Positions 39,534 to 45,979 of a stretch of DNA of 64,000 nt are shown piece after piece. The translations under genes were made by a program, and so were the position numbers. The notes below the pieces were generated by a model. It saw only the letters and a program-made list of their open reading frames with translations. It searched no databases and was not told the DNA's origin. Each line of letters starts with the position of its first letter. Within the stretch, counting starts at the first letter, position 1. This DNA is from Thermoclostridium stercorarium subsp. stercorarium DSM 8532 (lineage in GTDB: Bacteria; Bacillota; Clostridia; DSM-8532), in the NCBI RefSeq assembly GCF_000331995.1, contig NC_020134.1:744001-808000 (forward strand), read 5' to 3'.

Positions 39534-39895
39534 GGGGGCGTATTGGTTTCGACGGGATTATTGAAGCAAGAGTAGCGGGTAGAGGATTCTCGTTGGCCTC
39601 TTTAAAAAACGAGAGCTAAAAATAAACGCAAACAACGATAACTACGCTTTAGCTGCTGCGTAAGTAACACGCAGCCCGTCGGCCCCGGGGTTCCTGCGCC
39701 TCGGGATACCGGCGTCATCAAGGCAGGGAACCAGCCGGATCAGGCTTCAGGTCCGGTGGGATTTAATGAAGCTACCGACTTATAAAGCCTGTCTCTGGGC
39801 GTTATAAGAAGGGAATGTCAAAACAGAGACTGCACCCGGAGAAGCTCTTGTGGATATGGTTCCGGACACGAGTTCGATTCTCGTCGCCTCCACCA
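39534..39895 (+). ncRNA. ssrA: tmRNA (SsrA)
   Basis: The 5' end GGGGGCG pairs with CGCCTCC near the 3' end, which is followed by ACCA; the T-arm GTTCGATTC is present. The tag frame begins at GCA 39628 and encodes ANNDNYALAAA before TAA at 39661, a normal ClpXP-type degradation tag. Its 3' end served as an integration site for the element whose relic follows. Confidence 0.96.
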
Positions 39896-40431
39896 TCAAA
39901 AGTCACAATTTTATCTATTTCGATTTTATCTTCATACACAATTATTTTATTAACGTAATCCCGGATGATGCGTTTCTGCTCTTCCGGGCTTTTGTTTCTT
40001 ATATCAGCATCTTTCTGAAGGTATTTCCTTATCATATCTTCGGTAGGCGCATGTGTTTTGGCTTGCAATTTGGCTTCTTCTAATTTAAGCAAAAGGTTTG
40101 CTTCCTTTGTTTCAAGTTCATCCATTTTTTCCTTTATAGACGGATGGAACATCCCTGCTGCTATGACATTTACTATGTTGTTTATTTCAGTCTGAATACC
40201 AGCGAGTTGGTCAGTAAATATGTTTTTATATCACGATTTATTTCTTCGACCTGTGAAGCAGCATATTCAGATATTTTTGCAATAATCCTTTCTATAGCTT
40301 CAGGTGAAAATACGTTCTTCTCAGGATGTTCAATAACGAGGTTCTCTATATATCTTTATTGATAATCTTCATGACGCATTCTTTTGTTCTTTTTCTATTA
40401 GAGCATTCATACGTCACGTAAAAGTTTTATT
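39896..40431 (-). pseudogene. Serine recombinase C-terminal relic
   Basis: Minus-strand frames show, in order, a zinc-ribbon piece (YECSNRKRTKECVMKIINKD), then ENLVIEHPEKNVFSPEAIE, then after another shift TDQLAGIQTEINNIVNVI through the coiled coil to YVNKIIVYEDKIEID. These are the C-terminal features of large serine recombinases. At least two frameshifts separate them and the catalytic domain is gone. The final codons (GGGDENRTRV) run into the complement of the tmRNA 3' end, showing that the element abuts ssrA. It marks the left end of a decayed integrated element. Confidence 0.8.
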
Positions 40432-40574
40432 TCTACCAGTGGACAAGCTGCAGTTTCCTCGCGCCAGTATAAACCCACAAAGCCGGCATTATGACAGGAA
40501 CGGCAAGGGAAAAAAGTAACTGACAGCTCTAAAATTAAATCCTTCCTGTAGCGCTACCCCGGCTTCGTTCTGGG

Positions 40575-40773
40575 TTATTAATTTAATTTGCAAATTGGTA
40601 AAATATATGGTAATATTTATCAATAAATAATTCTGTCGATCTCCGGTAGCTTAAAAACCCCCGGGGATCGACAGATGTAAAAATCGAGCAATATCAGCTA
40701 TTTGCGGATTTTAATACTTAAAAACATGAAAGTTATGATTTTATAAAAGCGGCTTTTTACGAGGGTTTTACGG
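40575..40773 (+). promoter_or_regulatory. CRISPR array 1 leader
   Basis: An AT-rich leader with AATTTGCAAATTGGTAAAA, AATAATTCTGTCGAT and a CCCCCGGGGATCGACAG segment. It is nearly identical over about 190 bases to the leader of array 2 (44947-45139). Confidence 0.85.
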
Positions 40774-41974
40774 GTTTAAAGTTTACCTATAAGGAATTGA
40801 AACTCACCATCGCCTTTACTATACAAGTGTGTTCCTCGTTTAAAGTTTACCTATAAGGAATTGAAACATTTCGGTGATGCACCCCACGAGCATAAAATGC
40901 TCGGTTTAAAGTTTACCTATAAGGAATTGAAACGTTAGGTTTCTTTTTAGATTCTATGATACCTTTTAGTTTAAAGTTTACCTATAAGGAATTGAAACTC
41001 AAAAATCTATATCACTTTTTACTATATCCCTTGTGTTTAAAGTTTACCTATAAGGAATTGAAACATCGATAATGTCAATTCTACCTAAAGGGTAATAATC
41101 GTTTAAAGTTTACCTATAAGGAATTGAAACGTGTTTTTTAATATATTAAGTAATGTTTTATCATTTGTTTAAAGTTTACCTATAAGGAATTGAAACCGTT
41201 AATTAATTTTTCATTCTTCATGGTTTTAACCTGTTTAAAGTTTACCTATAAGGAATTGAAACTCCCCAACGCTCAGCAAGTTTAACCTCCGATGTGAGTT
41301 TAAAGTTTACCTATAAGGAATTGAAACTGAGCGCATCAGCGAACTCATGGAAGAAGAGCGCAGGTTTAAAGTTTACCTATAAGGAATTGAAACGCAGTAG
41401 TCCGTATGCTGGTAACATCCGGCCTCTCGTTTAAAGTTTACCTATAAGGAATTGAAACCATAAATAATTATTTAGAGGCGCCTCCTGAAAGGCGTTTAAA
41501 GTTTACCTATAAGGAATTGAAACTTACATGTTGCTCATACAGTGGAACAGGTACCGTAAGTTTAAAGTTTACCTATAAGGAATTGAAACCTTTAGCGTCA
41601 AACATTACATATATCCCTCTACGTTTAAAGTTTACCTATAAGGAATTGAAACCGAACACCAGGACCACAGCAAAGCGGTGCGTGATGGTTTAAAGTTTAC
41701 CTATAAGGAATTGAAACCCTCGACATTGGATATAGGCCCAAATTCACAAGAGTTTAAAGTTTACCTATAAGGAATTGAAACCCTTCTGAAAGGATAATAA
41801 AAATAGCCGTCGCAAGTTTAAAGTTTACCTATAAGGAATTGAAACATGATCGTTGTGGAAAACGAATACTTCGTTTCCACGTTTAAAGTTTACCTATAAG
41901 GAATTGAAACTTATTAAAAGCGTTTAATGCACCGTCTATTGTTAGTTTAAAGTTTACCTATAAGGAATTGAAAC
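40774..41974 (+). CRISPR. CRISPR array 1, 19 repeats
   Basis: Nineteen essentially identical 30-base repeats, starting GTTTAAAGTTTACC and ending AAGGAATTGAAAC, at a mean period of 65 bases. There are 18 spacers of about 33-38 bases. The 3' end GAATTGAAAC is typical of type I-B systems of Clostridia. The leader lies on the left. First repeat 40774-40803, last 41945-41974. No cas gene is in the window, so Cas proteins must come from elsewhere. Confidence 0.98.
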
Positions 41975-42116
41975 TATTTTCATTGTGGGAAACCTTCACA
42001 TCGAAGGTATTTCATACAATTTATATTGAAAAGGATAAAACTAATGGTATAATTTAAATAAACGTTTTGTCTGTCGATGTCTAATGAGTGTTAAATTGAC
42101 TTTATGAGGATTTTAC

Positions 42117-42336
42117 GGATTTGGAGTATACCTATGAGGAATTGAAACTATAGCTCTTTTAACTTTTTGACGCCCTTATTATCATTTTAAGTTTACCTAT
42201 AAGGAATTGAAACGAATATGTATAGCCCTTGTTGTTACCACACTCTTCGATTAAAGCCTTCCTGTGAGGAATTAAAACCCGTCAAGCCGTATGTTTCCAC
42301 CTGTTGTGGCGCTTTTGTCTACCTATAAGGATTTTT
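42117..42336 (+). CRISPR. Relic CRISPR array with degenerate repeats
   Basis: Four degenerate repeat copies near 42118-42147, 42185-42212, 42250-42279 and 42309-42335. They share fragments such as ACCTATGAGGAATTGAAAC and TTTACCTATAAGGAATTG, each with substitutions or truncation, spaced about 65 bases. The upstream segment (about 42040-42115) has vestiges of the leader. Mixed similarity to both intact arrays suggests an old third array. Confidence 0.8.
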
Positions 42337-42386
42337 CTCGTCTATAACCGAACGGATGTTTGTTATAATATCTATGGGTGAATTCT

Positions 42387-42515
42387 ATGAAAGCTCTCAT
42401 GCAACCCGTAGACATGATAAGCTGCACTTTAACGAAGTGGAGAGCTCCGCAGACTGTCAGGTTCATGGCAAAAGGTAAAGACGGTAAAAAGAACGAGAGT
42501 TTGAAGTCACGTTGA
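42387..42515 (+). CDS. Possible small gene or gene remnant
   Basis: A 42-codon frame (MKALMQPVDMISCTLTKWRA) preceded by GGGTG and a TATAAT at 42364. The first ten residues recall the start of a clostridial hypothetical family, but the rest does not continue as expected, so it is probably a truncated relic. Confidence 0.3.
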   Translation: MKALMQPVDMISCTLTKWRAPQTVRFMAKGKDGKKNESLKSR

Positions 42516-42768
42516 GTTGAATTCATGCAAAGGAGAAATGGCTGAAAATCATCGAGCATACGGTAACGGCTGTATGCAAACGGTATATTTGATTTTTAAT
42601 TTTAAGAGACGGGATTTATGTGACATGAAAACATTTTACAGTATGAGTTTGGAGACATCTGAAAAATAAAAAAATTAAAGAATAAAAGATGATTTTATCT
42701 TTTTTTGTAGAAATAAAACACTAATTGTAGAAATAAAACATTAATAATATGTGCCAAAGGGGGATACT

Positions 42769-43101
42769 ATGGATTTACTAAGGGATTATGACAATTATAT
42801 GATTAGGCAAATATTAAAAGAGAATGACGAAAAAATGGCTAATGAAATCAGAGAAAAAGAAAATATATTATCGGAGTTAAAAAAGAAATATTATAACATT
42901 GTTTTGGATAAAGAATTTGAGGAGTTTCTAAAGGAATTTGACAAGGATGCCGCACAGACTGAAAACACTCAGGAATCAGAGAATCTTGATGAGCTTGGCA
43001 GGCGGATTGAGGAACTGGAAAAGGAAATAGAAGTCTTAAAGATCAGATATCGCGGCTATCAACTGTTCAAGAAAAAAATAGAAGGTCAGTTTTACAAATA
43101 A
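42769..43101 (+). CDS. Unknown coiled-coil protein
   Basis: A 110-residue, highly charged helical protein with two coiled-coil stretches (KMANEIREKENILSELKKKY and LGRRIEELEKEIEVLKIR) and no membrane segment. ATG 42769 has AAAGGGGG six bases upstream. It is followed by a strong terminator, supporting a real monocistronic gene. It lies inside the element; phage origin is possible. Confidence 0.68.
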   Translation: MDLLRDYDNYMIRQILKENDEKMANEIREKENILSELKKKYYNIVLDKEFEEFLKEFDKDAAQTENTQESENLDELGRRIEELEKEIEVLKIRYRGYQLFKKKIEGQFYK

Positions 43102-43108
43102 AAAAATC

Positions 43109-43134
43109 AAGAGCCTTGAACAAGGCTCTTTTTT
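43109..43134 (+). terminator. Terminator of the coiled-coil gene
   Basis: Perfect 10-bp stem AAGAGCCTTG/CAAGGCTCTT with a two-base nominal loop and a T run. Confidence 0.9.
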
Positions 43135-43246
43135 GTTGGCATTGCAGAATTTTGGCGGCAAATGAGTTTTGCGCAGAAAACAAAAGCTTTTAATAATTGT
43201 ATGCTACCTAAAAATGTGAAATATAAAAAATACCATGGGAATGGTC

Positions 43247-43276
43247 AGGCACTTACTTTCGTAAGTGCCTTTATTT
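43247..43276 (+). terminator. Isolated intrinsic terminator
   Basis: Perfect stem AGGCACTTAC/GTAAGTGCCT, TTTC loop, followed by TTATTTAT. No gene directly precedes it, so the upstream transcription unit was probably lost. Confidence 0.75.
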
Positions 43277-43619
43277 ATACCCAGTCAAACATTTCCTGAC
43301 TGATACCTGACTGTTTGTTATGATTTTATGCCGTTTTTCGGTACCGTGAACATGAAAAGGGACGGCATTACCGGAGACAACCGGTTTAAAAAAGCAAAAA
43401 GAAAGGAGGAATGGATATGGGCTGTGGCTGAAGATTTCACGTAAGACGGAAGACTTCTGGCAGGACGGATGCATAAGTAATGCGGCTATTTTTTGGGAAA
43501 ACTGGTGAGGTGGAAATGTAAAAAAATAGTAATCAGTTGACCGGTTAACAAAATTTTGGGTAGGGTGCTCGGGCAAATAACGGAAAATTCATTGCAAGAG
43601 CGGGAAAGCAGGTGTTTAT
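43277..43619. other. Gene-poor stretch upstream of the lysis cassette
   Basis: Contains a GAAAGGAGG site before a very short frame at about 43420 that stops after four codons. Probably the decayed 3' part of a phage structural gene; nothing identifiable. Confidence 0.4.
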
Positions 43620-43850
43620 ATGCCAGGTGCGGAGATGGCGCAATACGGCATAGGATTTTTCGCCATCGCTGGGCTTATATATGTAATAACAAAGTTTTTA
43701 GACAAACGGAAAGATACGGAACTTACGGAAGTAATTGAGGATAATACAAAAGTTGTGGAAAAGGTGATTTCGGTACTTCAGGCTATTCAGCTGTCGCTTA
43801 CACGCCAGGAAGTCCAAATTGACGAATTATTGGATAGAGCAAGGAGATGA
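43620..43850 (+). CDS. BhlA/UviB-like holin
   Basis: A 76-residue protein with one N-terminal membrane helix (GIGFFAIAGLIYVITKFL) and a charged helical tail (VVEKVISVLQAIQLSL). This architecture fits the BhlA/UviB holin-like family. It lies six bases before the amidase gene, the usual holin-endolysin order. ATG 43635 is an alternative start. Confidence 0.75.
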   Translation: MPGAEMAQYGIGFFAIAGLIYVITKFLDKRKDTELTEVIEDNTKVVEKVISVLQAIQLSLTRQEVQIDELLDRARR

Positions 43851-43856
43851 TGGTAC

Positions 43857-44519
43857 ATGTTAAGTTATGTAACTGACCACATACCCAAAACTACGCCTTA
43901 CAACCGCCGTCCCGGGTATTCCATGACGCCGGAATATATCACAATACATTCTACCGGCAATCCGACCAGTACGGCAAGGAACGAACGCGCATGGTTAACT
44001 AACCCGAATAACAATGTCACGGCCAGCTGGCATATTGTAGTGGACGAAAAAGAGGCAATTGAAGCCATACCTTTAAACGAGGTCGCATGGCATGCCGGGG
44101 ACGGGGGGAACGGGACGGGAAACAGAAAAAGCATTGGTATTGAAATATGCGAAAGCGGAGACAGGCAAAAGACTTTGAAGAATGCTGCGGAACTGGTTGC
44201 AAAGCTTCTGAAAGAACGCGGATGGGGAGTGGATAGGCTGCGCCGGCATTATGACTGGAGCGGTAAAATATGCCCTCGGATTTTCTACGATAACGGCAAG
44301 TGGACAGGGTGGGAACAGTTTAAGGAAGCTGTTCAAAAGGAACTTTTCGGAGGTGATAACATGACACAGGATAAAAATCAGCCTTCCGACTGGGCGAAGG
44401 AGGCCTGGGAATGGGCTAAAAAGGAAGGTATTACAGACGGAACGGATCCGCAGAGAGTTGCCACACGTGAAGAAGTCATAACCATGCTTTACCGGTATTA
44501 TAAGAAGGATTCCAAATAA
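43857..44519 (+). CDS. Phage-type N-acetylmuramoyl-L-alanine amidase
   Basis: A 220-residue endolysin cleaving the amide bond between muramic acid and the peptide stem. The Amidase_2 domain spans about 5-160, with zinc ligands His31 (ITIHSTGN), His131 (RRHYDW) and Cys139 (KICPR). The last 50 residues (WAKEAWEWAKKEGITDGT, ATREEVITMLYRY) look like a partial SLH-type repeat used for wall attachment. It is the core of the lysis cassette lying between the CRISPR arrays. Confidence 0.9.
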   Translation: MLSYVTDHIPKTTPYNRRPGYSMTPEYITIHSTGNPTSTARNERAWLTNPNNNVTASWHIVVDEKEAIEAIPLNEVAWHAGDGGNGTGNRKSIGIEICESGDRQKTLKNAAELVAKLLKERGWGVDRLRRHYDWSGKICPRIFYDNGKWTGWEQFKEAVQKELFGGDNMTQDKNQPSDWAKEAWEWAKKEGITDGTDPQRVATREEVITMLYRYYKKDSK

Positions 44520-44693
44520 TGTGATATTGGTTATATTGCTTAATGCTGTCTTTACAGCAGCAGGACTGTTTATTGCCACCGGACCAAACGGATCCAATGG
44601 CTTTGATGATAGGCGCATGGTTCATCTTCACGACAGCTGAATGGTCCTTGGATTGAAAAAAGAAAAATGGGAGTGAAAGAGGAGTTGAAAGGG

Positions 44694-44900
44694 ATGAGTA
44701 ATCTCAAGCAAAAACTTACAAGCAGAAAGTTCTGGATAACCATTGCAACGGTTGTCTTTATTATCCTTTCTGAGGGATTAGGCTGAAATATTGACAATGA
44801 TTTGTACTGGAAAATTGTAACAATGACGCTCGGCTATATTTTTGGTGAAGCAGCCGCCAACATTGCAAGAGCGAAGAGTACTGACAGCGCAAATGCATAA
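44694..44900 (+). pseudogene. Second holin-like protein with internal TGA
   Basis: A 69-codon frame starting MSNLKQKLTSRKFWI with GGAGTTGAAAGGG upstream. Codon 31 is TGA (44784-44786), after ILSEGLG; translation would resume NIDNDLYWKIVTMTLGYIFG. Without the stop it would be a two-helix phage holin. Trp (TGG) is a plausible ancestral residue. It lies after the amidase and before a terminator. Confidence 0.7.
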
Positions 44901-44920
44901 ACATTATCTGTTACCTGCTT

Positions 44921-44946
44921 ACCCCGGCTTCGGCCGGGGGTTTTTT
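44921..44946 (+). terminator. Terminator of the lysis cassette
   Basis: CCCCGGC TTCG GCCGGGG hairpin with a six-T run. A decayed copy of the same hairpin (CCCCGGCTTCGTTCTGGG) lies at about 40556-40573 before the first leader. Confidence 0.9.
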
Positions 44947-45139
44947 ATTTAATTTGCAAATTGGTAAAATATATGGTAATATTTATCAGTAAATAATTCT
45001 GTCGATGTCCGGTAACTTAAAAAACCCCGGGGATCGACAGATCTTAAAACTGAGCAATATTAGCTATTTGAGGATTTTAATGCTTAAAAACTTGAAAGTT
45101 ATGATTTTATAAAAGTGGCTTTTTATCCGGTTTTTACGG
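44947..45139 (+). promoter_or_regulatory. CRISPR array 2 leader
   Basis: It starts ATTTAATTTGCAAATTGG and ends with GGCTTTTTAT... next to the first repeat. Near-identical to the array 1 leader, with about one change per ten bases. Confidence 0.85.
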
Positions 45140-45613
45140 GTTTGAAGTTTACCTATGAGGAATTGAAACGATAAAACAAGCTACCCCTGAAGTACTCCAT
45201 CGGTTTGAAGTTTACCTATGAGGAATTGAAACCAAATATTCTAAATCCAATCGCAAAAATTGATATTGTTTGAAGTTTACCTATGAGGAATTGAAACCGG
45301 GGAAACATTAACGTTATTAAATCAAACACAAAGTTTGAAGTTTACCTATGAGGAATTGAAACTAGTGAAAGCAGAAAACGCAACTTAGGCAAAACGAGTT
45401 TGAAGTTTACCTATGAGGAATTGAAACGAAGCCGGCACTAAATATGTTTCCCATGTGTCAAAAGTTTGAAGTTTACCTATGAGGAATTGAAACCGTTTTT
45501 TGACGTAGATAGGTTGCTTCGGTCGCCCGTTTGAAGTTTACCTATGAGGAATTGAAACGTGTTGGTATAACCCCCTCCACACAACCACATCGCGTTTGAA
45601 GTTTACCTATAAA
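45140..45613 (+). CRISPR. CRISPR array 2, 7 full repeats and a truncated eighth
   Basis: Repeats of 30 bases at 45140, 45203, 45268, 45333, 45398, 45464 and 45529; a final copy at 45594 is cut after about 20 bases. They differ from array 1 repeats at positions 5 (G for A) and 18 (G for A). Seven spacers of about 33-36 bases lie between them. The truncated end suggests a deletion removed the older part of the array. Confidence 0.97.
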
Positions 45614-45979
45614 GGGTTCTTTTTACTACCTCCAAAGCATTGAGCCAATGGAGAGCTTCAGCACTTTTCAGGATAAATGAAAAAAAGTACAATGCAGTGA
45701 GAAACATGTGTAGGGTTCTATGGCCGGTTTCAGCTCTTTTTTTATAATTTAGTTAAATGCTGATGTATTTTTTTGGAACAGGAATTTTTTGTTATATTGA
45801 ATTATTTCGCAGAAAGAGCTTGAACAAGCGATGAAAGACAAATGGCGGTTTGGCAATGAATAATACTGTTTTTTTAAAGAACAGAAAGATTTTTAAAACT
45901 TAAAAGAATTTGTATATTGAATTGAATATATGATATATAATGTAATTATGTATATTTAAAAGTTAAAAAGGGTGATAAA
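45614..45979. other. Gene-free stretch right of array 2
   Basis: One frame at about 45620-45745 reads as a protein-like fragment (KALSQWRASALFRINEKK) but has no start or ribosome site; it may be a relic joined to the array by deletion. A TATAAT at 45936 could serve msrA, but no good -35 was found. Confidence 0.4.

Follow-up and report, generated by a model that had tools for sequence, protein, structure and literature searches.

Motifs in the leaders of CRISPR (clustered regularly interspaced short palindromic repeats) arrays of types I-F and I-E reportedly lie at set phases from the leader-repeat junction. Two questions are open: how type I-B and type III integrases locate their arrays, and how type III systems lacking Cas1 acquire spacers. 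In type I-F systems, Cas2 contacts inverted repeats of the leader according to an excerpt of PMC12259127, and an excerpt of PMC12814883 describes III-B operating with I-F CRISPR RNAs (crRNAs) in Marinomonas as well as arrays of co-occurring I-B and other systems. The genome of Thermoclostridium stercorarium DSM 8532 was published, as C. stercorarium, with 10 CRISPR loci (3 to 63 repeats) and 3 cas clusters (excerpt of PMC3593316). Here we analyse a window of 64 kilobases (kb), positions 744001-808000 of this single-contig genome of 2,974,379 bases, which holds two arrays, A and C, each behind a leader with an inverted repeat of 42 nucleotides (nt). This inverted repeat, referred to below as the hairpin, probably helps one spacer-adding machine to recognise arrays of different immune systems, and the wider result of the analysis is this leader motif, beyond the two arrays. 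The elements concerned are as follows (window positions; positions in kb refer to the genome).

40555..40579, plus strand: decayed TTCG terminator 5' of leader A (pattern match, fold z -0.5)
40572..40773, plus strand: leader A (alignment with the other leader copies)
40633..40674, plus strand: 42-nt leader inverted repeat (hairpin) of A (models R1 and R2, E-values 8.3e-14 and 2.4e-15)
40774..41974, plus strand: CRISPR array A, 19 identical repeats
44920..44945, plus strand: intact TTCG terminator 5' of leader C (pattern match, fold)
44938..45139, plus strand: leader C (alignment with the other leader copies)
44999..45040, plus strand: 42-nt leader inverted repeat (hairpin) of C (model R1, E-value 7.1e-14)
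45140..45616, plus strand: CRISPR array C, 7 repeats and one truncated

Array A consists of 19 identical 30-nt repeats and array C of 7 identical repeats and a truncated eighth, with unique spacers of even length (33-36 nt) in both; no spacer common to the two was found. An AT-rich conserved leader lies on one side of each array and decay at the far end, where the last repeat of C is truncated and a decayed unit follows A. An initial annotation, made from the sequence alone, had noted the same leader and the same TTCG hairpin terminator before both arrays, the latter decayed at A, together with repeats that had diverged at two positions, and this anatomy is borne out. The repeats differ at two positions (GTTTAAAG..ATAAGG in A vs GTTTGAAG..ATGAGG in C), and the alignment of the two upstream regions that it had proposed gave 91% identity over 232 nt (40572-40803 vs 44938-45169), the leaders alone being 90.6% identical. 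The terminator sequence TACCCCGGCTTCG.. occurs twice in the 64 kb, at 40555 and 44920, where chance would give none, and folds only at C (-10.1 kcal/mol, z -3.85). Leader A had no Rfam match at the gathering threshold, and the only matches in E-value mode were far below it.

The hairpin has 12-nt arms and a conserved loop (TA....AAAA) and is oriented towards the array. It is present in all eight dispersed leaders of the genome (decayed at 419 and 2319 kb), in the leader of the type I-B array, which lies behind cas2, and in the leader of a small array (1503.7 kb) whose repeat is I-B-like. All 10 sites found by model searches of the genome were at arrays, belonging to two repeat families, and A and C have their leader motif in common with I-B arrays that do have cas1-cas2.

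Cas1, Cas6 and Cas7 matches were absent from the window and all lay elsewhere in the genome; A and C have no linked I-B cas operon, and the earlier remark that no cas genes are nearby was correct for these families. Looking for cas operons elsewhere, as had been suggested, returned three clusters, all far from the dispersed arrays. The sole Cas1 of the genome, of type I-B (TIGR03641, 7.9e-137), is encoded at 1789.9 kb with Cas2, Cas4, Cas3 and Cas5b, in an operon that adjoins a 63-copy array of a different repeat; a second I-B effector, without Cas1, lies at about 2070.5-2077 kb; and a III-D effector operon at about 346-356 kb, also without Cas1, encodes Cas10, a Csx10-like Cas5, III-D Csm2 proteins, Csm3-like proteins, Cas6 and a CARF-HEPN protein. 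No array was found at the III-D operon in the 336-355 kb stretch examined. A small decayed array of yet another repeat, for which the genome model search reported no hairpin match, separates cas5 from cas3 in the second I-B effector, at about 2074.5 kb (L091 12529-12861).

We judge it fairly probable that the leaders of A and C carry a DNA docking motif for Cas1-Cas2 adaptation, one integrase serving both the I-B array and the dispersed arrays, and the latter being used in trans, most likely by the III-D system. The hairpin would be the docking site of the Cas1-Cas2(-Cas4) integrase or of a helper protein, and would have to face a particular side of the DNA helix as seen from the point of integration. 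The only Cas1, of I-B type, would recognise the motif and add spacers both in the I-B array and in the dispersed arrays with GTTT..GAAAC repeats; the crRNAs of these dispersed arrays would most likely be processed by Cas6 of the operon at 346-356 kb and used in trans by the III-D complex.

The association of the hairpin with arrays extends well beyond this genome. An exact pattern search across the genus gave 6 distinct sites, all of them leaders. At the level of the order, 7 of 33 genomes had model matches, and the ten matches outside this genome that were inspected had arrays downstream except for G003:C13 (decayed repeats only) and G020:C4 (the contig ends 149 nt on); at the level of the phylum, matches were found in 100 of 398 genomes and 72 of 271 genera. 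A pattern scan of 84,980 species returned at least 120 stretches, whereas about 0.5 would be expected by our arithmetic. From these, 80 stretches were obtained as loci and all 80 were examined (88 distinct sites), the record titles among the matches listed including Bacillota, Thermotoga relatives, Atribacteria, Chloroflexota, WOR-3, Ignavibacteria, Bacteroidales and others. A strict array finder placed an array start within 400 nt downstream at 67 of the 88 sites from the listed matches, upstream only at 4 and in neither place at 17; among the 21 sites with no array called downstream, 9 show a whole, decayed or contig-cut repeat there (6 by pattern, 3 by eye), 5 reach the end of their contig within 116 nt and 3 show nothing. 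The best 29 model-found loci of the phylum comprised 26 with an array or repeat downstream, one with an array upstream, one ending at 33 nt and one with none, compared with 6 of 438 random positions that had an array or repeat downstream. At 40 further hairpin places, 33 had a repeat core at a plausible distance, confirmed as a tandem repeat in 30 of the 33, and I-B-like cas1/cas2 lay directly 5' of the hairpin at 20 of 73 sites. A literature search (titles, abstract starts and partial texts; a 2025 leader-motif survey was outside its reach) did not turn up this hairpin.

Other arrangements were also seen. Hairpin matches L264, L272, L274, L275 and L287 had no recognised repeat downstream, L274 and L275 having an altered 3' arm in common, and may represent a variant element whose role differs. 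At L117, L133, L165, L170 and L242 an array lies 58-80 nt upstream of the hairpin and not downstream; three of these upstream-array loci are titled Ignavibacteria, Bacteroidales or Prolixibacteraceae. Strings of short arrays, each with its own hairpin leader, occur at L110, L093, L096, L103 and L132 (Paenibacillus, Paludifilum, Defluviitalea), and the same 8 kb at these loci held no relative of the I-B Cas1 or III-D Cas10 of the present genome.

The hairpin mostly lies 97-147 nt 5' of the first repeat, and its distances from that repeat cluster near 77, 98, 111, 122, 134 and 146 nt (105 sites). For 45 de-duplicated leaders from outside the genus, phasing was R=0.67 at 11.6 nt, a value reached by 0 of 3000 nulls, and none of the 45 fell in gaps covering 21 of the 51 positions, the gaps being defined on the same data. 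For held-out sites (n=22, after removal of L274, where the core match was not a repeat, and L264, where the distance was 9 nt), with the period preset at 11.6, R was 0.47 (p 0.0097) with agreeing phase. The phasing of the first set is strong and that of the held-out sites modest; both marks of an adaptation motif, a fixed orientation and a helical phase with respect to the leader-repeat junction, are found, the phase less sharply in the held-out sites. In the present genome the distances are 99 (A and C), 134 (I-B) and 77 (1503 kb), all within clusters. In the leader at 210.7 kb a loss of 8 nt puts the hairpin at distance 91 and off phase, and the array there has one intact repeat; the leader at 1360 kb is in phase, yet also has one intact repeat only.

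Spacer content also connects the arrays. Five strong spacer overlaps were found, all of them on the same crRNA strand, four between dispersed arrays and the I-B array and the fifth between A and the array at 2322.8 kb. Two overlapping pairs have identical ends, that is, the same 35-nt window in diverged sequences, and the overlaps, their common strand and these windows are as expected from one spacer-choosing machine. The overlapping spacers hint at the 5' flanks CCG, CCT and CCC for R2322_11, A_2 and IB_10 (n=3, too few for a claim). Spacers of A and C had no match beyond the 14-nt chance level in the stretches of resident prophage examined. As for the user of the dispersed arrays, a III-D effector is present in the genome and its use of them in trans is likely: among the genomes of the order, all four with a relative of the III-D Cas10 (four genera) have the repeat core, vs 5 of the 29 without it (Fisher p 0.003, our arithmetic).

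Several observations weigh against the docking of one integrase at all these leaders and against III-D use of the arrays. Six of 21 de-duplicated held-out sites lie at distances that were gaps in the first set; 14 held-out leaders unlike the first set gave p 0.045 at 11.6 and 0.08 at the best period; and the period of 11.6-12.3 exceeds the 10.5 bp of relaxed DNA. A promoter-like sequence can be read 5' of the hairpin in this genome, so the hairpin may be transcribed here. The strand agreement of the spacer overlaps depends on the inferred orientation of the I-B array. The five genomes of the order that have the repeat without that III-D Cas10 mean that III-D use is not the only possible use. 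In addition, a distant search of a phage collection with spacers of array A and the I-B array gave weak matches only and no protospacer, and scans of viral contigs with spacer patterns gave no match or a single 20-nt match that broke off at once; because no protospacers were found, a protospacer adjacent motif was not readable from targets.

Beyond this genome, we offer only as a tentative proposal, somewhat less probable than its opposite, that the 42-bp phased inverted repeat may be an address for I-B family Cas1-Cas2 across several phyla, such that any array with the motif would be fed whatever its repeat and one adaptation machine would supply both DNA-targeting I-B and RNA-targeting III-D effectors out of scattered arrays.

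The alternative that survives best, although we regard it as unlikely, is that a lost I-B system left the dispersed arrays behind as dead remnants, with no effector for them to serve now. No cognate effector adjoins them, the copies at 419, 961, 1360 and 2319 kb are decayed, and relatives in the genus have orphan arrays without III-D Cas10. However, within each longer array the repeat is nearly uniform and particular to that array, being identical throughout in the longest, and some spacers of dispersed arrays overlap those of the I-B array. Moreover, a changed last repeat base is common to the 15 leader-proximal copies at 205 kb, which indicates that spacers were added after the mutation had arisen, as would follow from copying of the mutated first repeat with each new spacer.

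The hairpin could instead act as RNA, as a 5' structure of precursor crRNA that serves stability, processing or elongation control. It folds well, and its arms co-vary: across 75 sequences covariation was 0.178 vs 0.127 in shuffled sets, with 0 of 500 shuffles as high (the shuffles do not keep relatedness), four arm pairs show two-sided change and every slid version scores lower. An earlier test with 13 sequences was no better than shuffles, significance being reached with more sequences. Such covariation would also be shown by a palindrome that a protein reads. The promoter-like sequence upstream in this genome fits an RNA role too, as do the leader-repeat RNA hairpins known to have such roles in types II-A and VI-B (excerpt of PMC13187072). 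We nevertheless favour a role as DNA, and consider the RNA role improbable, because promoters of other lineages are enriched between hairpin and array and not 5' of the hairpin, and because the distance is phased to the repeat. Of 63 leaders, 29 had a promoter between hairpin and array (mean 3.2 and maximum 7 when sequences were shuffled in blocks of two bases) and 7 had one 5' of the hairpin (shuffled mean 4.7). In the 18 leaders with a clear promoter, R was 0.37 (p 0.997) for hairpin to promoter and 0.78 (p<1/2000) for hairpin to repeat.

The initial annotation had explained A and C by a single duplication of the unit together with a stretch of phage DNA. Duplication itself is real, and the part that does not stand is the one event between A and C, for the two are members of a dispersed CRISPR leader-array family: leader A and seven relatives with E <1e-19 make eight copies dispersed over the 2.97-Mb genome, and a ninth, relic leader lies between arrays A and C. 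A single local event that duplicated the terminator, leader and array along with phage lysis DNA, which we hold to be as improbable as the RNA role, would account for the terminator and leader common to A and C and for amidase DNA 5' of both arrays; a relic of the amidase gene before leader A places phage lysis DNA 5' of both units and speaks for the earlier account. Against it, besides the number of copies and the lack of a common spacer, the leader tree has no supported group of A and C (bootstrap 35-43), and the leader at 2322.8 kb, which also has the terminator, is as close to C (90.0%) as A is, while the leaders R205 and R2322 are 91.8% alike. Since the terminator accompanies that leader and is absent from the resident prophage, it belongs to the array unit. 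The earlier anatomy is right and the single-duplication story too narrow.

Least probable of all is that the hairpin is the binding site of a transcription regulator of the arrays or cas genes, as an inverted repeat near array promoters and cas2 might be, given that it is not phased to the promoter and lies anywhere from 25 to 126 nt from the -10 element.

The locus as a whole is flanked by the transfer-messenger RNA (tmRNA) gene on one side and a methionine sulfoxide reductase gene (PF01625) on the other, and its elements follow in the order integrase relic, amidase relic, decayed terminator, leader A, array A, relic leader with three decayed repeats, phage lysis fragment, intact terminator, leader C and array C. 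The features not listed above, including open reading frames (ORFs), are given here.

39534..39895, plus strand: tmRNA gene (ssrA), probable old prophage attachment site (Rfam RF00023, 220 bits)
39802..40152, minus strand: phage-type integrase, C-terminal fragment only, antisense to the 3' end of the tmRNA (phrog_95 integrase, 6.2e-07)
40482..40506, plus strand: amidase-gene relic 5' of leader A (22 of 25 nt identical to 44242-44266)
41990..42278 (approximate), plus strand: relic third unit, a decayed leader with three decayed repeats (starts 42119, 42184 and 42249)
43604..44874, plus strand: phage lysis fragment (91.7% identity to resident prophage, genome 451183-452446)
43857..44519, plus strand: N-acetylmuramoyl-L-alanine amidase (endolysin; PF01510, 1.8e-22; phrog_3088, 1.6e-51)
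44694..44901, plus strand: holin-like ORF with an in-frame stop (from sequence; the intact prophage counterpart matches phrog_9987 holin, 1.8e-10)

Residues 6-90 of the integrase fragment align to positions 487-578 of the 651 of the phrog_95 profile, and a Pfam search with this fragment gave no match. The 22-nt identity of the amidase relic was reached by 0 of 300 shuffles. A holin-amidase cassette had been described between the arrays; the amidase is confirmed by its family matches, and the holin is not, as the 76-residue ORF 5' of the amidase had no holin-family match (only weak matches to phrog_6191, 0.0048, and phrog_4372, 0.0089) and the holin-like ORF 3' of it, intact in the prophage, is broken by its stop. 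The resident prophage at 451183-452446 has an intact lysis module closely related to the window fragment, and its region runs on into a gene for a DNA methyltransferase and one for an AAA ATPase. We read the locus of A and C as the site of an old prophage at the tmRNA gene, onto which CRISPR units have been superimposed, and the lysis genes between the arrays would be debris of that prophage with no functional role. Separately, a fragment of about 115-135 bases at window 42347-42485 recurs at genome positions 204930-205064 and 218197-218311 (74-84% identity), one copy lying about 300 bases 5' of another dispersed leader.

A leader motif that is widespread and follows a phase rule open to measurement allows a direct test of how arrays are found and how type III systems without Cas1 gain spacers; it could tell which orphan arrays are still being fed, and would assist in assigning the orientation of arrays and locating leaders in genomes. 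Compared with the published C. stercorarium DSM 8532 loci, the 63-repeat array and the cas clusters agree with the present analysis, and the passage concerned of PMC3593316 does not mention leaders, sharing between arrays or a hairpin. Like the leader inverted repeats and IHF motifs that guide Cas1-Cas2/3 in types I-F and I-E, the present motif has inverted symmetry and a set phase to the leader-repeat junction; unlike them, it is 42 nt long with 12-nt arms and an AAAA loop, and occurs at I-B-like and orphan arrays of several phyla. With the leader-repeat RNA hairpins of types II-A and VI-B, as the excerpt of PMC13187072 presents them, it has in common a conserved hairpin involving the leader, whereas those pair the leader with the first repeat and the present one lies wholly within the leader. 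Finally, as in the type III effectors that use type I arrays or adaptation genes (excerpt of PMC12814883), a type III system would here draw on the arrays of other systems; in contrast to the cases in that excerpt, the link is a common leader motif in front of different repeats, with III-D as the probable user.

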